From Planctomycetaceae bacterium (GTDB lineage Bacteria; Planctomycetota; Planctomycetia; Pirellulales; UBA1268), in assembly GCA_021300535.1 (NCBI GenBank), contig JAJTED010000030.1:1-57321 (forward strand): DNA of 57,321 nt. Direction: 5' to 3'. Below, piece by piece: positions 28,481 through 50,880 of this stretch. The position numbers and the translations under genes were made by a program. Each line of letters opens with the position of its first letter. Positions within the stretch are counted from its first letter, which is position 1. A model generated the notes under the pieces. The model was not told where the DNA came from and did no database searches. It worked only from the letters and a program-made list of their open reading frames with translations.

Positions 28481-29141
28481 ATGGCCGACGCGTTCCTGGA
28501 AAATCTGTTCAGCCTGAAGGGCCGCACGGCCGTGGTCGTGGGGGGCACGGGCGTGCTCGGCGGCGCCTTGGCCGATGGCCTCGCCGGCGCCGGCGCCTTC
28601 GTGGTCGTGGCCGGCCGCGGGGCCGACCGGGGCGCGGCCCGTGTCGACGCGATCCGCGCCGCCGGCGGCGACGGCACGTTCGTGAGCGTCGATGCCTGCG
28701 ACCGGGCGAGCGTCAAGTCGCTGCTCGACGCCACCGTCGCGGCCCGCGGCCGGGCCGACATCCTCGTCAACTGCGCCGGCGTCAACTCGGCGGTGCCCTA
28801 CTTCGACATCCCCGACGAAGACTTCGCGAAGATCATCGACACGAACCTCAAGAGCACGCACCTCGGCTGCCAGATCTTCGGGGCCCACATGGCGGCCCGC
28901 GGCGGCGGCGCGATCCTCAACATCGGCAGCGTGTCGGCCGACAAGCCGCTCTCGAAGGTCTTCATCTACTCGGCCTCGAAGGCTGCCGTGGTCAACTACA
29001 CGAAGAACGTGGCCCGCGAACTCGCCCCCCAGGGGGTCCGCGTGAACGTCCTCTGCCCCGGCTTCTTCCCCGCCGAGCAGAACCGCAAGATCCTCTCGCC
29101 CGAGCGGACTCGACGGCGGGTTCACCGGCATGAGCATTTGA
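28481..29141 (+). pseudogene. SDR oxidoreductase (mannonate/gluconate dehydrogenase-like), internal deletion and frameshift
   Basis: The first ~210 codons encode a good classical SDR: GGTGVLGG, NCAGVNS, catalytic NIGSVSAD and YSASKAAVVNYTK, then CPGFFPAEQNRK. It has an AAGGAG site and starts 13 bp after gnd. At about 29105 (after SPER) the family sequence breaks. The expected last residues (DGGFTGMSI, then stop) appear at 29112-29141 in a different frame. About 45-55 codons, a number not divisible by three, therefore seem to be missing. In the original frame there is no stop, and the frame runs on through the intergenic repeats straight into zwf. It is most like the SDRs annotated as D-mannonate oxidoreductase or gluconate 5-dehydrogenase; the exact substrate is unclear. 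Confidence 0.8.
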
Positions 29142-29190
29142 CCGCGGGGAAAACACCCGCATCCTGCCGGTTTTTGCTTGGCGGCTCGTG

Positions 29191-29261
29191 GCGCATACCT
29201 CCAGGTGTGCGCATGCGGGGCATGGTGCGCGGAACCGGTTTCGCAAGCCTGGAGGCTTGCG
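29191..29261 (+). repeat. Two palindromic hairpin repeats before zwf
   Basis: First hairpin: GCGCATACC, loop TCCA, GGTGTGCGC (one wobble pair). Second: CGCAAGCC, loop TGGA, GGCTTGCG, a perfect 8-bp stem. They sit in the 182 bp between the broken SDR and zwf. No T-tract follows, so they are not simple terminators. Confidence 0.65.
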
Positions 29262-29323
29262 CCACTGCCGCGGGCAGTGAACGCCCCGTGCGACAGACGG
29301 TACACTCCATACCCCTGCTATCT

Positions 29324-30784
29324 ATGCCACACACGATCGTGATCTTCGGGGCCTCAGGCGACCTCACGAGCCGCAAGCTCGTGCCGGCCCTCTACAACCT
29401 GACGCGGGCCGGGTCGCTGCCCCCCGACACGCGGATCGTCGGCTTCTCGCGCACGGTGATGAGCGACGCCGACTGGCGGGCGAGCCTCCACGAGACCACC
29501 GCGAAGCACGGCGACTGCGGCCCCCTCGACGCCGCCTCGTGGGACGCCTTCGCCGCCCACATCCACTACCAGCCGGGCGACATCGGCAAGGCGGAGGACT
29601 TCGGCCGGCTCGCGGCGCGGCTCGACCAGCTCGAGGCAGGCGAGCCTGCCACGCGGGTCTACTACCTCGCCACCGCGCCGCAGTTCTACGAGCCGGCGAT
29701 CACGGCGCTCGGCGCACACGGCATGGCCGACGAGGCCCGCGGCCCGCGGCGGATCGTCGTCGAGAAGCCGTTCGGCACCGACCTGGCCACGGCCCGTGAG
29801 CTCAACGCCCACCTGCACCGGGTGTTTCACGAGCACCAGGTGTTCCGCATCGACCACTACCTCGGCAAGGAGTCGGTGCAGAACATCCTCGCCCTGCGGT
29901 TTGCCAACACGATCTTCGAGCCGGTCTGGAACCGTCGGTACATCGACCATGTGCAGATCACGGTGGCCGAGGAGGTGCAGGTCGGCCGGCGCGGGTCGTA
30001 TTACGACACCGCCGGCGTGCTCCGCGACATGTTCCAGAACCACCTGCTACAGCTGCTCATGGTCACGGCCATGGAGGCGCCGGTGCGGTTCGAGGCGACC
30101 GCCGTGAGGAACGAGAAGGTCAAGGTTCTGGAGGCGATCCGGCCGCTCGACCTCGGCGAGGTCCCGGCCGCCGGCGTCCGCGGCCAATACCGCGGCTACC
30201 TCGACGAGCCGGGCGTGCCGCCGCACAGCCAGACGGCCACGTTCGGCGCCGTGCGGCTGGAGATCGACAACTGGCGCTGGCAGGGCGTGCCCTTCTACCT
30301 GCGCAGCGGCAAGGCGATGAGCTGCCGGACCACGCAGATCGTGATCGGCTTCCGCCAGCCGCCGCTGGAACTGTTCGCCGCCGGCCGACGGACGTTCCAC
30401 CGCGAGGCCAACCGGCTCGTGATCCAGATCCAGCCCGCCGAGGGCATCCAGCTGCACTTCCACACGAAGGTGCCCGGCGAGGGCATGCGGCTGCGGCTCA
30501 CCGACCTGGAGTTCAGCTACTCCCGCGAGTTCGCCGGCCGGCTGCCCGAGGCCTACGAGCCGCTGCTGCTCGACGTGCTCGACGGCGACGCTAGCCTCTT
30601 CGCCCGGGCCGACGAGGTGGAGAAGTCGTGGGAGATCATCGATCCCTTCGTGCGGGCCTGGAGCAGCGGTGGCATGCCGCCGATCGACGCCTACGAGCCG
30701 GGCGCGTGGGGCCCGCAGGCGAGCGTCGAGTGGATGGCGGCCCAGGGACGCACGTGGTTCGACATGTGCCCGGTGCTGACGTGA
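29324..30784 (+). CDS. zwf: Glucose-6-phosphate 1-dehydrogenase
   Basis: 486 residues. Oxidises glucose 6-phosphate to 6-phosphogluconolactone with NADP, the entry step of the oxidative pentose phosphate pathway. GASGDLTSRKL at the N-terminus binds the coenzyme, VEKPFGTDL is conserved, and the active-site signature RIDHYLGKESVQN is intact. The C-terminal beta-sheet domain is complete. The ATG at 29324 is the family start (MPHTIVIFGASG), but no Shine-Dalgarno is visible and the frame is open upstream into the SDR remnant. It may be leaderless, internally started, or made as a fusion. Its stop overlaps the GTG of dus. Confidence 0.95.
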   Translation: MPHTIVIFGASGDLTSRKLVPALYNLTRAGSLPPDTRIVGFSRTVMSDADWRASLHETTAKHGDCGPLDAASWDAFAAHIHYQPGDIGKAEDFGRLAARLDQLEAGEPATRVYYLATAPQFYEPAITALGAHGMADEARGPRRIVVEKPFGTDLATARELNAHLHRVFHEHQVFRIDHYLGKESVQNILALRFANTIFEPVWNRRYIDHVQITVAEEVQVGRRGSYYDTAGVLRDMFQNHLLQLLMVTAMEAPVRFEATAVRNEKVKVLEAIRPLDLGEVPAAGVRGQYRGYLDEPGVPPHSQTATFGAVRLEIDNWRWQGVPFYLRSGKAMSCRTTQIVIGFRQPPLELFAAGRRTFHREANRLVIQIQPAEGIQLHFHTKVPGEGMRLRLTDLEFSYSREFAGRLPEAYEPLLLDVLDGDASLFARADEVEKSWEIIDPFVRAWSSGGMPPIDAYEPGAWGPQASVEWMAAQGRTWFDMCPVLT

Positions 30785-32646: not shown

Positions 32647-32717
32647 TGAAGCGGCGGTCTCCGACCGTCGTGCTTCGCGAGTCGGGAACGGGCGTAACTC
32701 GCACATCTCGCCCCGTC
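32647..32717 (-). repeat. D repeat (copy in minus orientation)
   Basis: Its reverse complement reads GAGATGTGCGAGTTACGCCCG and later GACGGTCGGAGACCGCCG. The same elements recur in plus orientation at 34011-34110, so these two copies bracket the A/B repeat array. In the middle, GTTCCCGAC here is replaced by its reverse complement GTCGGGAAC in the other copy. Between this and the first B unit (32718-32914) is AT-richer sequence with no gene. Confidence 0.65.
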
Positions 32718-32914
32718 GTTGAGCCAGTCTGCCTCTTGGGACTGGTGTTGCGTTCCGGTCTGTCGGGTTTGGCGGTTCCGTTCCTTGAAGCCGGAGGCGC
32801 GAGTTTTGCTGTTGCACGGAGGAGCTCAACAGAGCGGCGCCGCTGCAGGGATCCTGCAGCGAATCGTATTTTTGACCACCCGTACACAGGCGATCGGTCT
32901 CGTCACCGGTCCAA

Positions 32915-33286
32915 GAAGCCCCGGGTGGAAACCCGGGAGCGTGATGCACGCGAACCCGCGGCTTCGTGCCGTGGTTCGCTTGGCGGGCCGCCGCCCGCTT
33001 GGAATCAACCCGGCCCTCCAGGCCTGGCACCCGCACAAGAAGCCCCGGGTGGAAACCCGGGAGCATGATGCACGCGAACCCGCGGCATCGTGCCGCGGTT
33101 CGCTTGGCGGGCCGCCGCCCGCTCGGAGTCAACCCGGCCCTCCAGGCCTGGCATCCGCACAAAAAGCCCCGGGTGGAAACCCGGGGGCATGATGCACGCG
33201 AACCCGCGGCATCGTGCCGCGGTTCGCTTGGCGGGCCGCCGCCCGCTCGGAGTCAACCCGGCCCTCCAGGCCTGGCATCCGCACAA
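32915..33286 (+). repeat. B repeat, three tandem 124-bp units
   Basis: Units start at 32915, 33039 and 33163, each 124 bp and each beginning with GAAGCCCCGGGTGGAAACC (one unit begins AAAG). Each unit folds into four hairpins: CCCGGGT-GGAA-ACCCGGG, a long stem GCGAACCCGCGGC/GCCGCGGTTCGC, GCGGGC/GCCCGC, and GGCCC/GGGCC. Unit 1 has substitutions that keep most pairs. Long frames here are only the repeat read through. Confidence 0.9.
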
Positions 33287-33442
33287 GAAGCCCCGGGTGG
33301 AAACCCGGGGACTCCGGGTGTGAAAACCATCCCGCCGTCCATGCCGCATCGCGCAACGTGATTTCCCGGTTCAAACCCACATCGCATGGCACCCGGGATG
33401 AGATGCAACCCGGAGTCCCCCGGCTCCCGCCGGGGGCTTTTT
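33287..33442 (+). repeat. A repeat, copy 1 (156 bp, inverted ends)
   Basis: The left end GAAGCCCCGGGTGGAAACC through GGGGACTCCGGG is the imperfect inverse of the right end (CCCGGAGTCCCCC, then CGGCTCCCGCCGGGGGC with TTTTT). Each end is itself an 8-bp hairpin. The right hairpin plus T5 looks like a plus-strand terminator. Confidence 0.88.
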
Positions 33443-33464
33443 CTGCCGTTCGCGTGTGTCCCAA

Positions 33465-33585
33465 GAAGCCCCGGGTGGAAACCCGGGAGCATGATCCACG
33501 CGAACCCGCGGCATCGTGCGGTTCGCTTGGCGGGCCGCCGCCCGCTTGGAATCAACCCGGCCCTCCAGGCCTGGCACCCACACAA
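33465..33585 (+). repeat. B repeat, single 121-bp unit
   Basis: Same unit as at 32915 but 3 bp shorter, with the bases lost from the long stem (CGGCATCGTGCGGTTCGC). Confidence 0.88.
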
Positions 33586-33741
33586 GAAGCCCCGGGTGGA
33601 AACCCGGGGACTCCGGGTGTGAAAACCATCCCGCCGTCCATGCCGCATCACGCAACGCAATTTCCCGGTTCAAACCCACATCGCATGGCACCCGGGATGA
33701 GATGCAACCCGGTGTCCCCCGGCTCCCGCCGGGGGCTTTTT
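33586..33741 (+). repeat. A repeat, copy 2 (156 bp)
   Basis: Near-identical to copy 1 and exactly the same length. It differs at scattered positions (for example TCACGCAACGCAATTT against TCGCGCAACGTGATTT). The terminator-like right hairpin ends in TTTTT. Confidence 0.88.
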
Positions 33742-34010
33742 GTGCCGTTCGCGCATGTCAAGCCGAGCGCACGACTGGAGAACGCGCAACAACAAAAGCC
33801 GCGAGCCGAGGGAATGCGGATGGCCTCCCGTGGAGCGCCGCGGATTCCCTCATCTGACGATTCGGACTTCCCTGCAGCGGCGCCGGCGTGGCCGCCGCGG
33901 CCACCGCGTTGCTGGTTCCGAGGCGCTACACCTGTTTCATCTACCATCGCTGCATCCATGCAGCGGCTCGCGCCCAGGAAACCTATGGCGAAAACGACCG
34001 TTCCGTCGGC

Positions 34011-34110
34011 CGGGGCAAGCGAGATGTGCGCGTTACGCCCGTCGGGAACCCATTCGACGGTCGGAGACCGACGCTCCAGATTTGGTCGGAGACCGACGCT
34101 CCAGGCTCGT
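34011..34110 (+). repeat. D repeat (plus orientation, doubled core)
   Basis: GAGATGTGCGCGTTACGCCCG leads into two copies of GGTCGGAGACCGACGCTCCAG separated by ATTTG. It is the inverted partner of the D copy at 32647. The sequence from 33742 to 34010, between repeat A2 and this element, shows no supported gene. Confidence 0.65.
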
Positions 34111-34177
34111 AAGAAGCCGCCACCGCAGCCCGGCCTTTGGTTTGAAATCAAGATGCACGCGGCCTCCGTTTTGATGC

Positions 34178-34417
34178 ATGAGAACGACCGTCACCATTCG
34201 TGACGACCTCTCGCGACGGGCGAAGCAGCTGGCGCTGGCCCGCTCGTGCACGCTCAGTGCATTGGTGGAAGAATCCCTGCAGCAGGCGCTCGCCGGCCAG
34301 CAGGCTGGCGCCCGCCCGAAGCCGGGTCGGCCACCGACGTTCCGCGGCAGGGGATTGCAGCCGGGCGTCGATCTCGACAGCTCCGCAAGCCTGATCGAGA
34401 TCATGGAGGGCCGGTGA
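34178..34417 (+). CDS. VapB-type antitoxin (ribbon-helix-helix)
   Basis: 79 residues. N-terminal MRTTVTIRDDLSRRAKQLA is a ribbon-helix-helix DNA-binding segment, followed by TLSALVEESLQQAL. The C-terminal tail (LQPGVDLDSSASLIEIMEG) is the sort of flexible stretch that wraps the toxin. Its stop overlaps the GTG of a PIN-domain gene (GTGA), the usual vapBC arrangement. The partner toxin is broken, so this antitoxin is an orphan. Confidence 0.82.
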   Translation: MRTTVTIRDDLSRRAKQLALARSCTLSALVEESLQQALAGQQAGARPKPGRPPTFRGRGLQPGVDLDSSASLIEIMEGR

Positions 34418-34613
34418 TCCTGGTCGACGTCAACGTCCTCTTGTACGCCCATCGGGCCGATGCACGCGGCAATCTCGTCGGCGACGCGTACCATGCGGCG
34501 CTGGCCATCGAGACGGGGCGACGTGGATCACGACCGACCGCGACTATGCCCGCTTTCCAGGACTGAAGTTTCGCCATCCGCTCGGCGACGACGGCGGCTC
34601 CGCAGCGGGCTGA
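34414..34613 (+). pseudogene. VapC-type PIN toxin, internal deletion plus frameshift
   Basis: Starts VILVDVNVLLYAHRADA, the PIN-domain N-terminus with the first acidic residues. It then jumps to GNLVGDAYHAALAIETG, which belongs near the family's C-terminus, so ~70-80 codons containing the middle acidic residues are absent. After GAGACGGGG one base appears to be missing. In the shifted frame the text continues ATWITTDRDYARFPGLKF to the stop at 34613, a typical VapC end. The unshifted frame stops at 34566. The product cannot be a working ribonuclease. Confidence 0.85.
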
Positions 34614-34682
34614 CAGGCTGGCTGTTCGGAATGCCTGTCCGGACCGATGGTCGCGTTGCGACAGGGCACCGCGCGGCGTTCG

Positions 34683-35246
34683 TCACGGCCCCGCGGCGGC
34701 CGCCTGCGCCCACCAGGCCCGGAGCGTCTTCACGCCCGCCATGGCCTGTTCATGCTGCAGGGCGGCGGGCTGCATGTGCTTGGCATTCGATGCCATCGCC
34801 TCCCGCATGGCCTGGGCCTGTGCCCGCGGGTCGGAGCCCCGGATGGCCTCTGGGTTGCCGTCCGGGGGATAGAATGCCCGGTCGGGCAGCTTCGTGGCCA
34901 GCCAGATTCCCTCCTCGCCCTCCCGGAATCGATGCACACCTTTCGCCCCCCGATGGGTCGCGACCAACCGGATCGTCGCATCCTTCAGCATCTCGCCGAT
35001 CGTCGCATCCTTCAGCATGTCGCCCTTGAGCACCGCGGCGACCTCGACCACCACGACGTCGCTGTTGACGTCGAGCGGCTCGACGGACGCGACCTTGCCG
35101 CGAACGATCGCATCGGCCTTGCTCACCGCATCCCGCACAGGGATGGCCTCCCAACTCGTGGCCGAGGCTTCACCGGCCAGGGCGATCGCCGCCAGGATCA
35201 CGATCACGGCCCGGGCTCCGCGGGATGCGATGGTTTTGCTCGTCAT
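34683..35246 (-). CDS. Secreted hypothetical protein
   Basis: 187 residues with a probable signal peptide (positive start MTSKTIASRGAR, hydrophobic VIVILAAIALA, cleavage near ASATS). The mature part starts SWEAIPVRDAVSKADAIVRGKV, a pattern seen in exported proteins with an OB-like strand set. It contains a nine-residue direct repeat, GDMLKDATI then GEMLKDATI, encoded by a 27-bp tandem duplication near 35000. No enzymatic motif. The ATG at 35246 was chosen for the signal peptide. Confidence 0.65.
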   Translation of the reverse strand: MTSKTIASRGARAVIVILAAIALAGEASATSWEAIPVRDAVSKADAIVRGKVASVEPLDVNSDVVVVEVAAVLKGDMLKDATIGEMLKDATIRLVATHRGAKGVHRFREGEEGIWLATKLPDRAFYPPDGNPEAIRGSDPRAQAQAMREAMASNAKHMQPAALQHEQAMAGVKTLRAWWAQAAAAGP

Positions 35247-35352
35247 GCTGCTGCTCCTTTTTCGGTTGGCGGTTTCGTTCTTGGGCAAGCTCGCGTCACG
35301 GCCCGCGACGGGCCTGGCCGACGACACGGATATGACGACACGGAGATCATGC

Positions 35353-36444
35353 TCATTTGGGCCGCCCGCTCCGCTGCCGCTCTTCGAGCCACGCTGGGAT
35401 TATGAAGTCGTCGGTCTCGCTGCCGTCGGGCTCGGCGATGAACTCCAGCGTCGCGACGAGTGGGATCTCGACATCGCGCTTTTCGATCAGGGCGGAGAGC
35501 GTCTTGGGGGAGATTTTCTTGAGGCTGGGGAGCGAAAGTGGGCCTTTGCGCGTGGCGAGGGCTTTGGCAACGACGACGGAGTCGGGGGTGTCGAGGGTGG
35601 TGATCTTGGGGAGTTGCCCGTCCCATTTCGGGCTGGCAGCAAGCACCTTGGCGGTGGCGGCATCGAGGCTGGTCAGGCTCGGAAGGCGGCCGCTCCACCG
35701 TTTGGCAGCAGCGAGCGCGTTGGCGGTAGCAACGTCAAGCGTGTTCAGGCCGGAGAGCGACAGCAAGAAAGCGGCCGACTTGAACTCCGCGAGCGCCTGC
35801 GCCGTGTCGGCATCGAGCCTGGTCAGGCTGGGAAGTTGCCCGTCCCATTTCGGGTTGGCAGCAAGCACCTTGGCGGTGCGTGCGTCGAGCGCGGAGAGGC
35901 CGGCGAGGTTCAGGAACATGACATTCGCGAACCCCTTGGCCGTCTCGGCGTCGAGCGTGGTCAGGCCGTCGAGGTACAGACGGTGCTTGAACTTCGCGAG
36001 CGCCGTGGCCGTATCGGCATCGAGCGTCGTCAGGCCGCGGAGGAACAGGTAACCGCCCTTGAACTCCACGAGCGCCGTGGCCGTGTCGGCGTCAAGCGTG
36101 GTCAATCCGTCGAGAAGCAGCGGGCCTCTCGAATATCCCGCCAGTTCCTTGGCCGTCTCCTTGTCGATGGACTTCAGGCCATTCAGGGGCAGGCATCGGG
36201 ATTCCGTCACTCCGAAACCGGAACGGGGCCGCGGGTTGGCAGGGCTGTTTCCGCCGATCCCCACCGCCACACTCACCCCCGAAAACTCCGTCGCCAACTT
36301 CCGCGCCCGTTCCGGCGTCAGGCTCTCGATCTTGTTCGTGTCCGCAGGCAACTCGTCGGCACGCACGGGAGCGATGCCGAGCAGCATCCCAGACACGAAC
36401 AGGGCGACGGCTACCAGAAACAGATTCGACTTCGCGGTCGTCAT
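35353..36444 (-). CDS. Secreted leucine-rich-like repeat protein
   Basis: 363 residues. Signal peptide MTTAKSNLFLVAVALFVSGM, then TPERARKLATEF. From residue ~75 it consists of about ten repeats of ~20-24 residues with consensus LxLxGLTTLDADTATALAxF, resembling leucine-rich repeats with an alanine-rich helical side. Probably periplasmic or surface-bound and used for protein interaction; no function can be assigned. The ATG at 36444 gives the signal peptide. Just upstream lies a remnant of a paralogue's 3' end (36505-36570). Confidence 0.75.
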   Translation of the reverse strand: MTTAKSNLFLVAVALFVSGMLLGIAPVRADELPADTNKIESLTPERARKLATEFSGVSVAVGIGGNSPANPRPRSGFGVTESRCLPLNGLKSIDKETAKELAGYSRGPLLLDGLTTLDADTATALVEFKGGYLFLRGLTTLDADTATALAKFKHRLYLDGLTTLDAETAKGFANVMFLNLAGLSALDARTAKVLAANPKWDGQLPSLTRLDADTAQALAEFKSAAFLLSLSGLNTLDVATANALAAAKRWSGRLPSLTSLDAATAKVLAASPKWDGQLPKITTLDTPDSVVVAKALATRKGPLSLPSLKKISPKTLSALIEKRDVEIPLVATLEFIAEPDGSETDDFIIPAWLEERQRSGRPK

Positions 36445-36504
36445 TGTGGGTCTCGGTGCCAGAGGAAGGCGGGGTAAGACGGGTTCGCGGTGTTGGACGC
36501 CGCA

Positions 36505-36570
36505 AATCGATTCCAGCGTCTTGATGAGCGGGATCTCGACAGCGTGCTTTTCGATCAGCGTGACGGGGGC
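36505..36570 (-). pseudogene. 3' remnant of a paralogous repeat-protein gene
   Basis: Read on the minus strand this encodes TLIEKHAVEIPLIKTLESI, matching ALIEKRDVEIPLVATLEFI at the end of the adjacent gene. The DNA is about four-fifths identical over ~60 bp. Nothing else of the gene is seen upstream. Confidence 0.75.
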
Positions 36571-36740
36571 GACAAGCGCAAGCCCCACCCCAGGCAAAGG
36601 CCGGCGGCGCGTTCAAGGACGTAGAGGCGCGAAGCCCTGCAAAGGTTCCCGCGGCACCGAGGATTTCGCCAGACAGCCGGCCACGGATGCGTCTGACACG
36701 GGAAAAACATCGAAACCGGCAGCCTCCGCAGGAAGCCGGC

Positions 36741-36860
36741 CGCGGCGGTCTCTGACCGTCGTGCCCTGCCCCTGTAGCGGCGGTCGTGCCTCGCCTGTTG
36801 GGAACGCTTTCGGCGGTCAGAGACCGCCGCTCCAGATTTGGCCAGAGACCGCCGCTACAA
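36741..36860 (+). repeat. D repeat cluster overlapping the queG stop codon
   Basis: GCGGCGGTCTCTGACCGTCG, then GGCGGTCAGAGACCGCCGC and GGCCAGAGACCGCCGC. The arm CGGCGGTC-AGA-GACCGCCG is a perfect 8-bp hairpin. The last copy runs into the minus-strand gene queG and supplies its TAG stop. The rest of the 36445-36740 gap holds only the gene remnant. Confidence 0.7.
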
Positions 36861-37940
36861 GTCCTCGACGACGCCCGCAGCCTGCCATTGCGCGAGCGCC
36901 CATGCCGCCGCCTCGCGGACGGCCGGTTCCACGTCGGCGAGGGCTGCCGTCAGGGCTGGCAACGCCGCCGGGTCGGGCCGGTTGCCCAGCGCGATCGCCG
37001 CCGACCGCAGCAGGCCGCGCCGCTTGGCCCGCAGGAGCGGTGAGTCCTGGAAGCGGCGGCGAAATGCGGCCTCGTCCAACCCGAGCAGTTCCACGAGGTC
37101 GAGCGTGGTCATGCCGTCCTGCGGCTGGAACGCGGGTTCCGCCGACCCGGGCGCGTGCCGGTTCCACGGGCAGACCTCCTGGCAGACGTCGCAGCCGAAC
37201 ACCCAGTCGCCCATGCCGGCCCGCAGCGATGCGGGAACCGGCCCGTGGTCTTCGATCGTGAGCGTGCTGATGCACTTCGTCGCATCGAGCACCCGCGGCT
37301 CCACGAAGGCCCCGGTCGGGCAGGCGTCGAGGCAGGCCGTGCAGGTGCCGCAGTGGTCCGTCTCGAGCGGCACGTCGGCGGGCAGATCGAGATCGGTGAG
37401 CAGCGCCGTGAGGAAGAAGTAGCTCCCGGCACGCGGGTCGATGAGCATCGTGTTCTTGCCGATCCAGCCGAGACCGGCGAGCAGGCCGTAGTCGCGCTCG
37501 GCCAATGGCGCCGAATCGACCACACCGCGGGTGCGGCAGCCCGGCACGCGGGCCTCGAGCCAGGCCCCGAGCACGTTCGACCGCTCGCGCAGCAGGTCGT
37601 GGTAGTCGTCGCCGCGGGCGTAGCGGGCCACGCGGCCGCGGCCGGGCACGGACTCCGCGGGAGGATCGGCCGGGTAGTCCGTCGCCAACACGATCACGCT
37701 GCGGGCGCCCGCCAGCAGGTGCGCCGGATCGCTCCGCAGCGGTTCGTGCCGCGCAAGCCAATCCTGCATCACTCCGGCACGCCCCGCCGTCAGCCAGTGC
37801 CGAAACGCGTCGTGATGCGGCGGCGGCACGGCCGGGGCGATACCAACGCGGTAAAACCCGATCCGCGCCGCCTCGGCCCGCAAGGCGGCCGCAAGCGCGT
37901 GGACGTCGAGGCCGCTCATGGGACTGTCGGGCGTTGGCAT
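36855..37940 (-). CDS. queG: Epoxyqueuosine reductase
   Basis: 361 residues. Last step of queuosine synthesis: reduces epoxyqueuosine in tRNA to queuosine using cobalamin and two 4Fe-4S clusters. GWIGKNTMLIDPRAGS and the cluster motif CGTCTACLDACPTGA, plus CDVCQEVCPWN, carry the eight Cys ligands. ATDYP and RYARGDDYH are family positions. A C-terminal HEAT-like segment (AAIALGNRPDPAALPALTAAL) is present, as in many QueG. Start ATG at 37940; ATG at 37919 is also possible and neither has a clear ribosome site. The stop codon lies inside a D repeat. Confidence 0.93.
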   Translation of the reverse strand: MPTPDSPMSGLDVHALAAALRAEAARIGFYRVGIAPAVPPPHHDAFRHWLTAGRAGVMQDWLARHEPLRSDPAHLLAGARSVIVLATDYPADPPAESVPGRGRVARYARGDDYHDLLRERSNVLGAWLEARVPGCRTRGVVDSAPLAERDYGLLAGLGWIGKNTMLIDPRAGSYFFLTALLTDLDLPADVPLETDHCGTCTACLDACPTGAFVEPRVLDATKCISTLTIEDHGPVPASLRAGMGDWVFGCDVCQEVCPWNRHAPGSAEPAFQPQDGMTTLDLVELLGLDEAAFRRRFQDSPLLRAKRRGLLRSAAIALGNRPDPAALPALTAALADVEPAVREAAAWALAQWQAAGVVEDL

Positions 37941-38136
37941 CGGTCGCGGCCGGCGGGAGAACCTGGGCAAGGCGGGCTCGGACCGAAGCCGGACCGAGCA
38001 GGCGAGGCGGGGCGGGCGACGGGAACTGGTATGGACCCACCCGGTGGAGTCGCTATTGTCCCGGCCCGAACCGTCCCGGGCATTGTCTCCTCGGGCGCGG
38101 CGTTTCCCAAGACTCTTCCCTCGTGGAGTGCCTGCC

Positions 38137-38868
38137 GTGTCGACCTGTCATTTGTCCCGTCGCGACGCCACCCGCGCCGCGAACGTCGACCAGCACCTGG
38201 GCGCACACCGTTCGTATCTCTGCCTGGCGACCGCGGCACTCGCGGCCGCGGCACTCGTGGGCCTCGCCGGCTGCCAGACCGCGCGGGCCCCGACCACGGT
38301 CGCCCCACCGGCCACCGGGATGATCGGCCAGGCCGCTCCCTACGGCGTCATGCCGCAACAGATGGGCGCGGCCTATCCCGCCGCCCCGCCGATGCCCGGC
38401 CCCGCGACCCAGTGGCAAGCCTCGGCTCCGGCGGCCCCGGCTCCGAACACATGGTCGTGGGCGCAGCCGCAGCCGGCCGCGCCCGCGATGCCAACCGCAC
38501 CTCAAATGCCGAGCTCGCAGAGCATCGCCAACCAGGGCCAGCAATTCGGCAACCAGATGCAAGCCCAGGGGCAACAGTTCGCCAATCAGATGCAGAACTC
38601 GGCGAACCAGCAGTGGCAGCAGATGGCCAACCAGACGCAGCAGCAGGCCAACCAATACATGAATCAGGCCACGCAGCAGGCCAATCAGTACATGAACCAG
38701 GCGGGCCAGCAGGCCCAGCAGTATGTCAATGGCGCCCAGCAGCAGGTGACGGCCCAGATGCCGACCGGCCAGCCACCGGCCGCGAATGCGAGCTGGAATC
38801 CGTTCGCCACGCCGGCGACGTCGATGCCCCCGGCGCGGGCCACGCCCGCAGCCCCGCCGCGGTACTGA
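38137..38868 (+). CDS. Gln/Asn-rich lipoprotein
   Basis: 243 residues from GTG 38137, with GGAG 8 nt upstream. A positive leader is followed by a hydrophobic stretch ending LVGLAGC, a lipobox, so the mature protein would be lipid-anchored at Cys. Next comes a Pro/Ala linker and then a long Gln/Asn helix-like region with 11-residue repeats (QQANQYMNQAT, QQANQYMNQAG, QQAQQYVNGAQ). The 11-residue period suits a long amphipathic helix. C-terminus is Ala/Pro-rich. No family assigned. Confidence 0.65.
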   Translation: MSTCHLSRRDATRAANVDQHLGAHRSYLCLATAALAAAALVGLAGCQTARAPTTVAPPATGMIGQAAPYGVMPQQMGAAYPAAPPMPGPATQWQASAPAAPAPNTWSWAQPQPAAPAMPTAPQMPSSQSIANQGQQFGNQMQAQGQQFANQMQNSANQQWQQMANQTQQQANQYMNQATQQANQYMNQAGQQAQQYVNGAQQQVTAQMPTGQPPAANASWNPFATPATSMPPARATPAAPPRY

Positions 38869-38884
38869 CTTCACGGCTGTCGGG

Positions 38885-38983
38885 CCATCCATGGCCCCGA
38901 CAGCCTTGGCGAGGCGTGAGCAAGCTCACGACTCGCAGGCGGTCGCACCTCCGGGCGACCGTGGCCGCAGCACAGCTGCGGCG
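38885..38983 (+). repeat. C repeat, copy 1 (three-hairpin element)
   Basis: Begins CCATCCATGGCCCCGACAGC. Three hairpins: GCGAGGCGTGAGC-AA-GCTCACGACTCGC (one mismatch), CGGTCG-CACCTCCGGG-CGACCG, and GCCGCAGC-ACA-GCTGCGGC. Copy 2 lies 176 bp downstream. Confidence 0.85.
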
Positions 38984-39060
38984 TGCGATGGCTCGCCAGC
39001 CCGGCGAGCCTCGCGTAAGCCGAAGCAGGCCCGAAGGGATGCGCCGGCGCGAAAGCGAGC

Positions 39061-39159
39061 CCATCCATGGCCCCGACAGCCTTGGCGAGGCGTGAGCAAG
39101 CTCACGTCTCGCAGGCGGTCGCACCTCCGGGCGACCGTGGCCGCAGCACAGCTGCGGCG
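39061..39159 (+). repeat. C repeat, copy 2
   Basis: Same 99-bp sequence as copy 1 except T for A at the mismatched stem position (GCTCACGTCTCGC). The spacer 38984-39060 and the following 39160-39239 show no gene. Confidence 0.85.
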
Positions 39160-39239
39160 AGGAGGCACGCAGCGCGGCCTGCGGCCGCTGCGTGCCCGCC
39201 TGGCAGGCGGCCCGTTGAACCCGGAGTTCACAGGTCCAA

Positions 39240-39395
39240 GAAGCCCCGGGTGGCAACCCGGGGACACCGGGCATGGAGGCCATCCCGCCTTCCATGCCGC
39301 ACGACTACAGGCGCTTCCCAACTTCGAACCCGCATCGCATGACACCCGGCAAGGTGTGCGACCCGGAAGCCCCCGGCTTCCGCCGGGGGCTTTTT
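39240..39395 (+). repeat. A repeat, copy 3 (156 bp)
   Basis: Same length as copies 1 and 2 with more divergence inside (GACTACAGGCGCTTCCCAAC). Ends fold as before (CCCCGGGTGGCAACCCGGGG; CCCCGGCTTCCGCCGGGGGC then TTTTT). Confidence 0.88.
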
Positions 39396-39750
39396 GGGAG
39401 AGCGCTAGGCCCGGAGGGCCGGGTCGATCCACAGCGGGCGGAGGCCCGCCAAGCGAACCGCGGCACGATGCCGCGGGTTCGCGTGCATCATCCTCCCCGG
39501 CTTCCGCCGGGGGCTTTTTGGGAGAGCGCCAGGCCCGGAGGGCCGCGTTGACCCCAGCGGGCGCAGGCCCGCCAAGCGAACTGCGGCACGATGCCGCAGG
39601 TTCGCGTACATCATCCTACCCGGCTTCCGCCGGGGGCTTTTTGGGAGAGCGCTAGGCCCGGAGGGCCGGGTCGATCCCCAGCGGGCGGAGGCCCGCCAAG
39701 CGAACCGCGGCACGAGGCCGCGGGTTCGCGTGCATCATCCTACCCGGCCC
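39396..39750 (-). repeat. B repeat, two full units and one partial, minus orientation
   Basis: Units 39396-39520 and 39521-39642 plus a partial from 39643. On the plus strand each reads GGCCC-GGA-GGGCC, a GCGGGC/GCCCGC stem, the long stem, then CCGGCTTCCGCCGGGGGC with TTTTT. Between units the long stem changes from C with G to T with A (GCGAACCGCGGCA/TGCCGCGGGTTCGC against GCGAACTGCGGCA/TGCCGCAGGTTCGC), and the GCGGGC hairpin changes only its loop (GGAG, GCAG). The third unit lacks the terminal hairpin. No gene is seen in 39751-39837. Confidence 0.88.
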
Positions 39751-39837
39751 CACACCACGGCTTGGCCCGCGGCCGCAGCCAGGCGACAATCGCTGGATCC
39801 GGCCCCCCTTCCGCCCACACCGCTTGTAGTGCAACGC

Positions 39838-41772
39838 ATGTTCGATTGGCTCGGCAGCATCGCGCCCGGGAGGCGTCCGGCGATCACCGCCGCGACCTGG
39901 AGAGTCGTGCGCGAGATCGACACGCTCGCGGCCGAGATGGAAGCCCTCGACGACGTCGCGCTGAAACGTCTCGGCCGCTCGCTCTCCTACCGGGCCCGCT
40001 CCGGCGAGGCCGCCGACTCGTTGATCATCGAGAGTTTCGCCGCCACCCGTGAGGCCGGCCGACGGCGGCTCGGCATGCGGCACTATGACGTGCAGCTGCT
40101 CGCGGGCGTGGCCCTCGTCCACGGCGCGATCGTGGAGATGCAGACCGGCGAGGGCAAGACGCTCGTCGCCACGCTGCCGCTGGTGCTCTACGCCCTGGCC
40201 GGCAAGGGCGCCCACCTGGCGACGGTCAACGACTATCTGGCCCGCCGCGACGCGGAGTGGATGACGCCGATCTACGAAGCCCTCGGCCTGTCGGTGGGGA
40301 TCGTCGAGTCGCAGATGGACTTCGACGCGCGGCGGAAGGCCTACGCCTGCGACGTGACCTACGGCACGGCCAAGGAGTTCGGCTTCGACTTCCTCAAGGA
40401 CCGGCTCATCGGCCGCGAGCTCGCCGAGGGCCGCGGCGACCTGGGCGCGACGCTCACGGGTGCGGCGGCTGGCAGCGCAGCGAAGCTCCTGCAACGGCCC
40501 TACTGGTTCGCGCTCGTGGACGAGGCCGACAACGTGCTCATCGACGAGGCCCGCACGCCGCTGATCATCGCCTCGCCCCCCGGCGAGGCGCAGGCCGTGC
40601 AGCAGGCCGTGTTTCGCTTCGCCGCCCGGGCGGCCCGGGAACTCGAGGCCCGGGCCGACTTCGAGAAGGAAGTGCAGAAGCAAACCTGCGAACTCCTCGG
40701 CCGGGGACGGAGCCGCGTGCGGGCCCTCGACCGGCCGCCGGAGCTCGACTCCACGAGCCTGCTGGAGCTCTACGACGCCGTCGAGCGGGCGCTGCGGGCC
40801 CGCGAGTTCTTCACCCGCGACCGGCAGTACGTCGTCCGCGACGGCAAGATCGTGATCATCGACGAGTTCACCGGCCGGGCCGCCGAGGGACGCACCTGGC
40901 GTGACGGCCTGCACCAGGCGGTCGAGGCCCAGGAGGGGATCGAGATTACGGTGCCGTCGGGGCACGCCGCGCGGATCACGATCCAAGACCTGTTCGCCCG
41001 CTGGCCGCACCTCGCGGGCATGACCGGCACGATCGCCACCAGCGCCCGCGAACTGGCGCGAACGTACGACGTGGACGTGGCCGTGGTGCCGACCAACAAG
41101 CCCGCGATCCGCGAGCGGCTGCCGGCGGTCGTGTGCGGCGACTACCCGGAGAAACTGCACCGCATCATCGCCGACGTCGCCGCGATGCACGCCCTGGGCC
41201 GGCCGGTGCTGATCGGCACGCGGTCGATCGACAAGTCGGAAGACCTCTCCCGGCTGCTGGAGCAGGCCGGCCTGCGGCACGTCGTGCTCAACGCCCGACA
41301 CATCGACAAGGAGGCCGAGATCGTCGCCGCGGCGGGGCAGCTCGGGAAGATCACGGTCTCGACGAACATGGCCGGCCGCGGCACCGACATCAAGCTCGGC
41401 GAAGGCGTGAAGGAGCTCGGCGGTCTGCACGTCGTCTGCACCGAACTCCACGACTCGGCCCGCATCGACCGCCAGCTCGTGGGCCGCTGCGGCCGCCAAG
41501 GCGATCCCGGCACGTGGCGGCAGTTCCTGGCGCTTGACGACGACATCCTCGTGCAAGGCTTCGGGCCGAAGCGGGCCGCACGGATCGCCGCCGGCCTGAG
41601 GGGCCGACTGGGCGGGAGCACGGCGGGACTGGAACGGGTCTTCAAGCGGGCCCAGCAGCGGGTGGAAGCGCGGCATGTCCGCCAGCGGCGGCTGCTGGAA
41701 TATGTGGAGCGGCAGCGGGCGGAGGCCCACATCCAGATGAGCCAGGATCCGTATCTCGACGCCGCGAGCTGA
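39838..41772 (+). CDS. Short SecA-like preprotein translocase ATPase
   Basis: 644 residues against ~900 for housekeeping SecA. Nucleotide-binding fold 1 has Walker A QTGEGKTL (102-109), TVNDYLARRDAEWM, and the DEAD-type VDEADNVLIDEARTPLI near 228. The fold 2 motifs MTGTI, STNMAGRGTDIKLG and VGRCGRQGDPGT are intact, so ATP hydrolysis should work. An insert lies around 200-220. The protein stops soon after the start of the helical scaffold (RRLLEYVERQR). The helical wing, IRA1 and the C-terminal zinc/SecB tail are absent. It may be a SecA2-like accessory motor. The true secA is not in this window. No secY or pilin gene is adjacent. Confidence 0.88.
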   Translation: MFDWLGSIAPGRRPAITAATWRVVREIDTLAAEMEALDDVALKRLGRSLSYRARSGEAADSLIIESFAATREAGRRRLGMRHYDVQLLAGVALVHGAIVEMQTGEGKTLVATLPLVLYALAGKGAHLATVNDYLARRDAEWMTPIYEALGLSVGIVESQMDFDARRKAYACDVTYGTAKEFGFDFLKDRLIGRELAEGRGDLGATLTGAAAGSAAKLLQRPYWFALVDEADNVLIDEARTPLIIASPPGEAQAVQQAVFRFAARAARELEARADFEKEVQKQTCELLGRGRSRVRALDRPPELDSTSLLELYDAVERALRAREFFTRDRQYVVRDGKIVIIDEFTGRAAEGRTWRDGLHQAVEAQEGIEITVPSGHAARITIQDLFARWPHLAGMTGTIATSARELARTYDVDVAVVPTNKPAIRERLPAVVCGDYPEKLHRIIADVAAMHALGRPVLIGTRSIDKSEDLSRLLEQAGLRHVVLNARHIDKEAEIVAAAGQLGKITVSTNMAGRGTDIKLGEGVKELGGLHVVCTELHDSARIDRQLVGRCGRQGDPGTWRQFLALDDDILVQGFGPKRAARIAAGLRGRLGGSTAGLERVFKRAQQRVEARHVRQRRLLEYVERQRAEAHIQMSQDPYLDAAS

Positions 41773-41789
41773 CTTCAGCGCCTGCACGG

Positions 41790-41901
41790 CCATCCATGGC
41801 CCGAGCAGGCTTTTGCCCGGCTGGTCGCAGCCAACGTGCGACCAGCCGGGCAAGCGGCCGCACCTCCGGGCGGCCGTGGCCGCCGCGGACCGGTGGCGGC
41901 G
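41790..41901 (+). repeat. C repeat, copy 3 (diverged, same folding)
   Basis: Begins CCATCCATGG like copies 1 and 2. First hairpin is a perfect 17-bp stem (41813-41853, TTGCCCGGCTGGTCGCA with loop GCCAACG), a different sequence from the other copies. The second is CGGCCG-CACCTCCGGG-CGGCCG, a compensated change from CGGTCG/CGACCG. The third is GCCGCCGC/GTGGCGGC with one wobble. A D-like fragment (GCGGTCTCTGACCGTC) follows at 41913. Confidence 0.82.
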
Positions 41902-42130
41902 TGGCTCATTGTGTAGCGGTCTCTGACCGTCTTGCCCGGTTGCCGGGAAGCCCGAATCGGAAGATGAGCGAATACGCGTCCCTGCACTCAAAGCCACCCA
42001 CATGCCCTCGGCTCACGCCTTTTGATGGTGCGGGGGGTGGAACGGCAGGGCGTCGCCGCTGCAGGAATCCGCATGCGACCGTTGTTTTGCAAATCCTTTG
42101 AATTGGGAATCGGTCTCGTCGCCCATCCAA

Positions 42131-42285
42131 GAAGCCCCGGGTGGAAACCCGGGGACTCCGGGCATGAAAACCACCCCGCCGTCCATGCCGGATGACGGCA
42201 CACAATTCCCGGTTCAAACCCACAGCGCATGGCAACCGGGAAGGCATGCCACCCGGAGTCCCCCGGCTTCCGCCGGGGGCTTTTT
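42131..42285 (+). repeat. A repeat, copy 4 (155 bp)
   Basis: Ends as in the other copies, 1 bp shorter. The stretch 41960-42130 before it shares short phrases with the sequence before the B array at 32840-32912 (CCGCTGCAGGAATCC; CGGTCTCGTC), so the flanks are repeated too. Confidence 0.88.
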
Positions 42286-42408
42286 GTGTGAGCGCCAGGC
42301 CCGGAAGGCCGGGTTGAAACCAGCGGGCAAAGGCCCGCCAAGCGAACTGCGGCACGACGCCGCAGGTTCGCGTGAACCATGCTCCCCGGCTTCCGCCGGG
42401 GGCTTTTT
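42286..42408 (-). repeat. B repeat, one unit in minus orientation
   Basis: Hairpin loops and stems again vary together: GCGGGC-AAAG-GCCCGC and GCGAACTGCGGCA with CGCCGCAGGTTCGC. Ends with CCGGCTTCCGCCGGGGGC and TTTTT. A second unit begins at 42409 but breaks off before the gene at 42486. Confidence 0.85.
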
Positions 42409-42485
42409 GTGTGAGCGCCAGGCCCGGAGGGCACGGGTTGACTCAGCCCCCGCTCCCGTGTGAGCCTGTGATCCGAGGTCATGTG

Positions 42486-43508
42486 ATGGAAACGTTCCTG
42501 CGCGTCGCAACCATCGTCGTCGGGCTGGCACAGGCCGGCGCCGTGGAGCCGGCGGCCGACGGCACGCAATCGGTCGTCGTGCCCGCCGATCGACCGCCGC
42601 CAGCCACGGAGCCGTCCGTGCTCGTGCCGCAGCCACCGACGGCGAACCCACCGTCGCAACCGCCGCCGGCCGCTCCTCCCGCGGTACCGCAGGCTGGACT
42701 GGCCACCGACATGCTCGCCCAGGCGCTCGAGCCGCTCGCCGGCCGGCCCGGTGCCACCAATGGCACCGCGGCACTCTACGCCCGGCCCCTCCCGCTGCTC
42801 GAGGCGCTCGATCGCTCCGGCGACCGAGGCCGGCGGCTGTGGATCACGCAGGCCTACTGGAAGGTGGCCACGGCTTTCGCCGCCGTTCGCTGGGCGACCG
42901 AGGCGATCGAGCGGCTGGAGCTCGTCGCCCCCGGTGGCGACCCGCACGACCGTGCCACCCTCGACGTCGCCACGGCCGCCGCCCGCGCCGATCTCGCCGA
43001 TGCCCGGGCCCAGCTCGGCGCCGCGCAGCAGGAGCTCGTCGATCTCTCCAAGCTGCCCGTCACCGATCCACTGCCCTGGCCCGTCGATCGGCCGCTCGCG
43101 ATCCCCTATCAGACGCACTTCGAGGCGATCTTCGCGACGCGGCCGGCCACCGGTCGCGTGCGTGCCATCGCCCGCACATTGCCGGCCCGGCACGAGGCGC
43201 TCGAGGCCCGTGCCGCGGCCGTGCGGGCCGCCGAGAAGGCGGCGACGATGGCCGAGGCTGATCATGCCCAAGGCAAGCGGCCGATCGAGGCGGTGATCGC
43301 AGCCCATGCCGCGCTCGTGGGCCAGCAGCGAGAGTTTCTCCAGGCCACAAAGGCCTACAACCTCGACATCGCCGAGTATGCGATGGCCGCCGCCGATCTC
43401 TCCATTCCCGACGACCGCTTCGCGGCGATGCTCATCGGCGCCCCGATCCAGTGGCGACAGCCGCCCGCCACCGCGCCCGCAAACCCCGCCGCCCCGGCCA
43501 CGCCATGA
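42486..43508 (+). CDS. Exported helical protein, TolC/outer-membrane-efflux-like
   Basis: 340 residues. A weak signal-like N-terminus (METFLRVATIVVGLAQAGA) is followed by a Pro-rich linker (30-75). The rest is long Ala/Arg/Glu amphipathic helices: ALEPLAGRPG, YWKVATAFAAVRWATEAIE, ARADLADARAQLGAAQQELVD and RAAEKAATMAEADHAQGK. These resemble the coiled-coil halves of TolC-type proteins as often seen in planctomycetes, but the beta strands of a channel are not apparent. It may be a stand-alone periplasmic helical protein. Its stop overlaps the ATG of a dus gene (ATGA). Confidence 0.6.
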   Translation: METFLRVATIVVGLAQAGAVEPAADGTQSVVVPADRPPPATEPSVLVPQPPTANPPSQPPPAAPPAVPQAGLATDMLAQALEPLAGRPGATNGTAALYARPLPLLEALDRSGDRGRRLWITQAYWKVATAFAAVRWATEAIERLELVAPGGDPHDRATLDVATAAARADLADARAQLGAAQQELVDLSKLPVTDPLPWPVDRPLAIPYQTHFEAIFATRPATGRVRAIARTLPARHEALEARAAAVRAAEKAATMAEADHAQGKRPIEAVIAAHAALVGQQREFLQATKAYNLDIAEYAMAAADLSIPDDRFAAMLIGAPIQWRQPPATAPANPAAPATP

Positions 43509-49885: not shown

Positions 49886-50668
49886 ATGCACGAATTTCAG
49901 CGGGTGATCGACGTCGGCGAGGTGCCCGATCCGGGCAAGACGCTCGTCGAGGTCGAGGGGGAGATGGTGGCGGTGTTTCACGTCGACGGCCAGTTCTACG
50001 CGCTCGACGACGTCTGCACGCACGATGGCGGTCCGCTGGCCGACGGCGAGCTCCGTGACCACAAGATCGCCTGCCCGCGACATGGCGCGAAGTTCGACAT
50101 CCGCACCGGCGCCGCCCTCACCATGCCGGCCGTGAGGCCCACGCGATCCCACGAGGTGAAGGTCGAGGCCGGCGGCGTCTGGGTGCGGCTCCGGGATGCC
50201 GCGGCCGCGACCGGCCCGGCGGCCCATGCAGCGCCGGCTGCGACGTCGGGCACCGGTGTGGTGGCGGCCGGCCCGGCTCCCACCGCCGCGGCCGGTGCGA
50301 CCGCGCCGGCAGCCTCCGGCGCGGTCGAGGGGAGCCTCGCGTCGCTGCCACTCTCCGAGGAAGTGGTCCGCGAGATGCTCAAGGATGTCAAGGACCCCGA
50401 ACTGTTCGTGAACGTCGTCGACCTCGGTCTGATCTACGGGGTGACGCTCGCCGACGCCGCCGAGGCCGCGGGCAAGAAGCATGTGGCGATCGACATGACG
50501 ATGACGAGCCCGGCCTGCCCGGCGGGGCCGCAGCTGATCGGCGACGCGAAGCGGGTCGTCGGCGCGCGGCCGGATGTGTCAGCCGTGGAGGTGCGGATCG
50601 TGATGGATCCGCCCTGGACGCCCGACCGGATGACGGAAGCGGCGCGGGATCAGTTGGGGATTTTCTGA
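49886..50668 (+). CDS. Rieske 2Fe-2S ferredoxin fused to a DUF59/SufT-like (MIP18) domain
   Basis: 260 residues. Residues 1-105 are a Rieske-type ferredoxin with ligands Cys44-x-His46 and Cys63-x2-His66 (VCTHDGG, CPRHGAKFD), like bacterial dioxygenase ferredoxins. Residues ~106-150 are an Ala/Pro/Thr linker. Residues ~156-260 are a DUF59/MIP18 domain (VREMLKDVKDPEL, VVDLGLIYGV, with Cys211 in SPACPAG), the family of SufT/MIP18 that helps Fe-S maturation. Such domains normally occur as separate proteins. Position after sufD, with GAGG before the ATG, supports a role in Fe-S assembly or electron supply to it. Confidence 0.88.
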   Translation: MHEFQRVIDVGEVPDPGKTLVEVEGEMVAVFHVDGQFYALDDVCTHDGGPLADGELRDHKIACPRHGAKFDIRTGAALTMPAVRPTRSHEVKVEAGGVWVRLRDAAAATGPAAHAAPAATSGTGVVAAGPAPTAAAGATAPAASGAVEGSLASLPLSEEVVREMLKDVKDPELFVNVVDLGLIYGVTLADAAEAAGKKHVAIDMTMTSPACPAGPQLIGDAKRVVGARPDVSAVEVRIVMDPPWTPDRMTEAARDQLGIF

Positions 50669-50695
50669 CTGGAGCGCCTGCCGGGGGAGGCGCGT

Positions 50696-50880
50696 GCCGT
50701 CGTGCGGCATGGATAGCGGGGTGGTTTTCGTGCCCGGTGTCCCCGGGCTCCCGCCCGGGGCTTCTTGTGTCACGCCCGCCACGACCCCCAAAAAGCCCCC
50801 GGCGGAAGCCGGGAGACTCCGGGTCGCACACCTTCCCGCATGCCATGCAGTACCGGGCTGGCACCGGGAATCACGCAGCC
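50696..50880 (-). repeat. A-type repeat ends at an element junction, minus orientation
   Basis: Contains an inverse left half (GTGCGGCATGGATAGCGGGG, CCCCGGGCTCCCGCCCGGGG) followed, 23 bp on, by an inverse right half (AAAAAGCCCCCGGCGGAAGCC, GGGAGACTCCGGGT). The two terminal hairpins face each other as at the joint of two adjacent A elements, with the distal halves gone. It fills the space between two convergent genes. Confidence 0.7.

Follow-up and report, generated by a model that had tools for sequence, protein, structure and literature searches.

Abundant transposase-linked hairpin repeats and a hybrid repeat unit in a planctomycete genome

Repeat arrays in the window

The window, by which we mean the whole stretch of planctomycete DNA that was analysed (57,321 nt), contains arrays of two repeat units, A and B, each carrying a small hairpin that we call the REP. 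In the first array the REP hairpins start at 32912(-), 33036(-), 33160(-), 33284(-), 33417(+), 33462(-), 33583(-) and 33716(+), and the units follow in the order B B B A B A. Three B units on the minus strand come first, at 32912-33035 (REP 32912-32938, three-hairpin core 32944-33027), 33036-33159 (REP 33036-33062, core 33068-33151) and 33160-33283 (REP 33160-33186, core 33192-33275). They are followed by an A unit on the plus strand at 33284-33443, with its left REP at 33284-33310 (-) and its right REP at 33417-33443 (+), by a further minus-strand B unit at 33462-33582 (REP 33462-33488, core 33494-33574) and by a second plus-strand A unit at 33583-33742 (left REP 33583-33609 (-), right REP 33716-33742 (+)). 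A preliminary description of this DNA had recognized the alternating array, which is real, and had put unit B at 121-124 bp, in agreement with the spacing of 124, 124, 124 and 121 bp in this array. Its length of 156 bp for unit A omits the tail bases and is replaced here by 160 nt between the outer REP tails. Both ends of unit A are 8-bp hairpins and unit B folds into four hairpins, as had been proposed; the DNA folds of A and of the B units of the window beat those of shuffled sequences, with z between -3.9 and -5.0, the fold of A having been computed over 150 of its 160 nt.

The same modules return in both orientations, again as first described. The region 39237-39735 holds, on the plus strand, an A unit at 39237-39396 (REPs 39237-39263 (-) and 39370-39396 (+)), B units at 39405-39520 (core 39405-39488, REP 39494-39520) and 39529-39643 (core 39529-39611, REP 39617-39643) and a last core at 39652-39735 that has no REP after it. 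Between 42128 and 42409 there is an A unit at 42128-42286 (+; REPs 42128-42154 (-) and 42260-42286 (+)) and a B unit at 42295-42409 (+; core 42295-42377, REP 42383-42409). At about 50691-50880, limits set by eye, two half-A pieces stand with their REP tails facing (REPs 50741-50767 (+) and 50789-50815 (-)). The gene upstream of this last repeat has an ortholog (at least 70% identity) in 18 of the 21 other genomes of the genus. The downstream gene was found beside that ortholog only in genome G018, where the gap holds another hairpin array. The upstream gene itself (49886-50668) encodes a 260-aa protein that combines Rieske and FeS_assembly_P domains.

Other repeats lie nearby. Another multi-hairpin repeat (families D13 and D14) occupies 38885-39159 and 41850-41905, as two copies 176 bp apart and one partial copy, and a similar design occurs in an intergenic array of G018 (L211). 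More repeated modules adjoin the arrays on both sides, at 32690-32915, 42020-42127 and 33740-34040; stretches resembling 32804-32915 or 42020-42127 were seen at 32 other loci in the fetched DNA of this genome, often adjoining a REP. Short GGTCGGAGACCGACGCTCCA-type hairpin repeats at 34036-34103 and 36792-36859 are 84% alike (family D15). Repeats of 46-88 nt at 66-78 bp spacing (35591-36192) fall within a called gene, which we take to encode a leucine-rich-repeat protein. The 767-aa open frame at 28481-30784 is an apparent fusion of a short-chain dehydrogenase (residues 16-222) with both glucose-6-phosphate dehydrogenase domains (287-759). A plasmid search with one window protein returned only distant flavin reductases.

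Unit A and its transposase

The genome (G000) is a 4.01 Mb draft in 197 contigs, 86% complete, and our repeat counts are lower bounds because several contigs start or stop inside these repeats (C17, C55, C99, C125, C130 and C160, for example); several of the searches for copies also scored candidates up to a fixed limit. The REP consensus at both ends of unit A is the hairpin CCCCSGGYTYCCRCCSGGGGCTTYTTG, with left and right types that differ in a compensatory manner. Among 82 distinct 27-mers from the fetched DNA of this genome, the pair at positions 5/16 is G-C in 47 and C-G in 30, and the pair at 8/13 is C-G in 44 and T-A in 34. The genome contains 800 matches to the REP pattern (404 forward, 396 reverse) and none to a reversed-pattern control. 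The offset within inverted REP pairs is 133 bp in 74 of 96 pairs, and otherwise 131-135 bp (15 pairs) or 154-195 bp (seven).

A sample of 449 kb, composed of the window and of 20 stretches from contigs that had given hits, contains 87 REPs. The window accounts for 17 of these, and all 87 except one lie outside the genes called by a purpose-built gene caller. REPs are found there in ten of 29 convergent gaps, 12 of 133 tandem gaps and four of 44 divergent gaps, counting gaps of at least 20 bp. The preliminary description allowed that the repeats might also act as terminators. Both REP types have terminator-like scores; 17 such sites, most of them REPs, are present in 32700-42600, compared with 5.4 in shuffled sequences.

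Paired changes were assessed in 33 of 89 A units, picked for diversity. The end hairpins are paired in 99% of cells and the foot stem in 88%, with double changes at three end-hairpin pairs (in 12, four and two sequences). The covariation score of 0.074 compares with 0.038 in shuffles, none of 500 reaching the observed value, and the six further pair types represent no excess (6.5 expected; 482 of 500 shuffles reach six). Pairing along the whole length of A was considered and set aside: none of the 35 pairs in an automatic consensus has a double change, whereas the end hairpins have some.

The preliminary description had envisaged a transposase gene carrying the same ends as the repeats, and such a gene exists. 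A single match to PF01797 (Y1, RAYT-like; 27 bits against a cut-off of 23) was found in the genome, on contig C177, in a 165-aa open frame (P0001) with the motifs HVH and YVAELQ. A REP and A pieces lie upstream of this gene and the right end of an A unit lies directly after its stop codon. Homologs are present in 22 of the 60 genomes searched, its own included. Y----Q occurs in all 23 rows of the transposase alignment and H-x-H in 22 of the 23, two rows sharing one contig (L052 = L023). No related solved structure was found at E 0.01. By its Y----Q motif P0001 appears to fit the published class 3 TnpA-Y1 group (PMC6006769), a placement made from motif and host.

The ten other transposase genes of the family each have, by eye, a repeated hairpin-like motif in their flanks; the motif is common to G005 and G016 and nearly so to G009 and G017. 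The G009/G017 flank hairpin has 342 copies in G009, 285 in G017 and 16 in G015, and none in the other 11 of 14 genomes, our own among them. Over 14 genomes the REP of G000 gives 800 matches at home, 110 in G028, 15 in G029, 12 in G009, 11 in G011, one each in G008, G017 and G018 and none in six. No homolog of the G000 transposase was found in G028 by the 60-genome search, despite its 110 REP matches, and a further PF01797 search did not cover this genome. A-like units also form 157-bp tandems in G028, which belongs to another genus (L003 and L015).

In this planctomycete genome, then, the repeats form a family of small hairpins that is linked to a transposase and very abundant. The REP/BIME-like reading offered at the outset is right for unit A because of its inverted doublets, fixed spacing and intergenic position, the flanks of the Y1 gene with the same ends, and the cognate pairing of gene-flank hairpin and abundant hairpin in two other species. 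Unit B is a hybrid and is treated below.

The foot 5' of the hairpin differs between the units. In the fetched DNA of this genome GGAG or GGTG precedes the hairpin in 180 of 189 A ends and in none of 65 B REPs, 52 of which have CATG, CATC or CATT in its place. Class 2 REPs have GT[AG]G as their canonical foot, and this is absent here, the foot being GGAG or GGTG.

REP systems are best known from Proteobacteria. Escherichia coli BIMEs are mosaic intergenic clusters of REPs in alternating orientation with short spacer elements. The arrays described here are likewise mosaic clusters between genes with REPs in alternating orientation, but in place of short spacers they carry the B core, a covarying structure of 83 nt.

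The closest counterpart of A and its gene is the class 3 group of Y1 genes, which occurs mainly in Planctomycetes, has the Y----Q motif and lies between atypical hairpins whose copy number can be high, as with the roughly 600 copies in Solibacter (PMC6006769). Motif, planctomycete host and a gene set between atypical high-copy hairpins are all shared, so that A and its gene belong to an already known kind. The feet differ: the published class 3 foot is CnGA, and here GGAG or GGTG follows a C. CnGA is thus present in part of the copies only, since CGGA stands before the hairpin (CGGAGT) in 31 of the 87 REPs of the 449 kb sample and CGGT in 37. The opinion that the repeats represent no described family therefore stands for their sequence, within the open-licence PubMed Central literature, and not for their kind.

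The REPINs and RAYTs of Pseudomonas fluorescens SBW25 are similar in their inverted REP doublets, fixed spacing, tandem clusters and a cognate transposase adjoining its own REPIN type, but have offsets of 71 bp (GI) and 110 bp (GII) in place of 133 bp and a GTAG-like foot that is not seen here, and we saw no counterpart of unit B there (PMC3116915). The nearest precedent for B is provided by the degenerate REPs of P. putida and P. fluorescens, which have been joined to unrelated stem-loops and multiplied (PMC3733652); these hybrids flank transposase genes, while in our genome the REP is joined to a three-hairpin element that has a family-wide distribution of its own.

Unit B and its three-hairpin core

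A sequence alignment of 32 cores (23 from G000 and nine from nine other genomes), drawn from 45 diverse ones, gives three helices. The proportion of paired cells is 99% for hairpin 2, 88% for hairpin 3, in which eight of the 12 pairs show double changes, and 80% for hairpin 1, which has two subtypes offset by one column. The covariation score of 0.286 exceeds the 0.103 of shuffles (none of 500 reaching it) and those of the slid controls, which do not rise above 0.170; one of these controls matches the core structure in pairs with double changes (12) and has 29 further pair types against 28. A set of 49 distinct cores from relatives scores 0.482 against 0.130, in an alignment that was fitted to the model and is biased towards the structure. 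This set has few G-U pairs, as fits either an element that has to fold on each strand or repair within hairpins of DNA. No clear U-run is present in the core, so that a canonical terminator is unsupported. A known RNA family was ruled out at the Rfam gathering score, at which the window yields a tRNA only and four loci of relatives yield nothing; with E raised to 5 the best match in the array reaches 24.9 bits against a gathering score of 39. Neither the B core nor this REP was found described in the open-licence PubMed Central literature.

A model built from the 32 cores was run with strict filters over the best 76 candidates of each genome and found matches in 24 of 60 genomes: G000, 16 of the 21 other members of the genus, seven of 15 genomes from other genera of the family and none of the 23 genomes outside the family but within the order. 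Within the family, our own genome included, the core is thus present in 24 of 37. There are at least 76 matches in G000 and in G032, 71 in G028, 56 in G029, 24 in G018 and one to ten in the others. The inspected cores of relatives are without the REP of G000, which rules out B as a shortened A. Nor does the supposition that A and B are two modules of one system hold for B, whose core stands alone in related species. Short B-like core tandems with a species-specific period, again lacking this REP, occur in G011 (L202), G002 (L150), G018 (L144) and G033 (L200).

In relatives the core keeps close company with stop codons. Of 31 clusters, 30 have an adjacent gene 3' end (L190 does not), and 16 of these 30 lie within -8 to +3 nt of the stop codon, where random placement in the same gaps predicts 1.6 (none of 20,000 simulations). 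Nine stop-abutting cores show the stop codon, three bases and CAC (AAC once) before hairpin 3; six show the stop codon and two bases before hairpin 1, and one further core lies at -7. The six sense cores follow homologous genes (48-88% identity) in G003, G006 (two), G012, G017 and G033, presumably DUF1501-like, and three antisense cores follow one orthologous gene (88-98% identity) in G009, G027 and G036, which we assume to be topoisomerase VI-A-like. The 16 cases are not 16 independent events because these six homologous genes and the orthologous trio are among them. The place of the core at the stop codon is kept across genera. With its strong paired changes and this fixed place, the B core qualifies by itself as a candidate structured element.

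Unit B is a hybrid in which a REP is joined to this older three-hairpin element. In G000 65 of the 86 cores examined (16 of 25 and 70 of 81 matches, weak or cut ones being left out) carry a REP next to hairpin 3; the comparison used 48 of 55 matches in relatives, selected in the same way. In a comparison of 78 cores between loci, similarity is 94% for the 33 that carry a left-type REP. For the 30 with a right-type REP it is 86.0%, no higher than the 86.1% that they show to the left-type cores, which leaves the number of fusions uncertain. The nearest core at another locus has the same REP type for 27 of the 33 and 24 of the 30, respectively, and this suggests that fused units spread after they had formed, perhaps in two lines. 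Most B steps (47 of 55) are in arrays that also hold an A. Seven B arrays are without one; four of these lie at a contig end and one has an inverted REP pair at an offset of 154 bp. We infer that B travels with A.

Proposed mode of spread, alternatives and significance

The explanation we favour, with a probability of about 0.7, is that A is a REPIN spread by the Y1 transposase and that B, a hybrid of a REP and a separate three-hairpin element, is likely to be its passenger, with a core likely to act at mRNA 3' ends. A would be non-autonomous, a pair of inverted REP hairpins carried into intergenic gaps by a Y1 (HUH) transposase that is encoded once, elsewhere in the genome. The core, as a separate family-wide element often situated at stop codons, would have become joined to an A-type REP hairpin, and the fused units would then have formed direct tandem repeats and been dispersed, mostly beside an A unit. 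The B REPs are without the GGAG or GGTG foot of the A REPs, and for this reason we propose that B is probably a passenger of A, or is moved by recombination, and is not itself cut by the transposase. In either orientation the core would most likely act at mRNA 3' ends, by termination or by protection from 3' exonucleases. We advance more tentatively the stronger version, that the core is an undescribed, orientation-independent 3'-end element of the whole family, vertically inherited at stop codons, which the REP/transposase system captured and multiplied in G000. If true, a mobile repeat would be delivering a 3'-end module of the host to new sites at the ends of genes.

The most serious competitor, which we consider possible though doubtful, takes the core for a mobile repeat of another enzyme and its position at stop codons for a preference of insertion without function. 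The many copies in G000, G028, G029 and G032, their two orientations, the constant offset from the stop codon and the scarcity of G-U pairs, expected of DNA hairpins, would all agree with this. Cores were sought as the ends of another Y1 transposase, and that candidate was rejected: a search of 59 Y1 loci with the core model gave one clear match, about 200 bp upstream of the gene at locus L025 of G029, the other five being at E 0.008 or weaker, and none of the 59 has core-like ends as a pair. The place kept behind homologous genes in different genera also argues against an insertion preference.

It is unlikely, in our judgement, that the paired changes in the core reflect template-switch repair in DNA hairpins and not selection for function. 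The outer arms of hairpin 3 diverge yet stay paired, even inside one tandem pair of G032 (L182), and G-U intermediates are few, both of which speak for template switching; against it stand the conserved loops and linker, the three-hairpin layout fixed across genera and the placement of cores at stop codons.

A very improbable alternative is that A and B are MITEs of a single family, belonging to an ordinary DDE transposon, and that the Y1 gene lies near A pieces by coincidence. The inverted ends of A and the end hairpin common to A and B recall such elements, but the one Y1 gene lies between A pieces, and gene-flank and genome-wide hairpins are paired species by species.

The CsrB motif is GGA in hairpin loops. 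Many core loops contain GGA, and many relatives have CAGGATG in hairpin 3, yet we regard an RNA decoy for a CsrA-like protein as even less probable than a MITE, given that hairpin 3 of the G000 cores is mostly ACGAN and that stop-abutting cores are sense in six cases and antisense in nine or ten, so that many transcripts would carry the complement. That the first array, although tandem, is nothing beyond local tandem duplication can be dismissed, and the few copies and lack of covariation by which the preliminary description would have known such a duplication are not what we find: the 800 REP matches are genome-wide, copies lie on many contigs and the stems covary.

The findings matter in two respects. 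Firstly, related transposases, each with a flanking hairpin of its own, are present in several species of a single genus, and in three of the genomes this hairpin is abundant; the genus is natural material for work on the co-evolution of transposase and REP. Secondly, unit B shows how a REP can join an unrelated structured element and spread it, a possible route to altering many mRNA 3' ends together. The core may itself be new.
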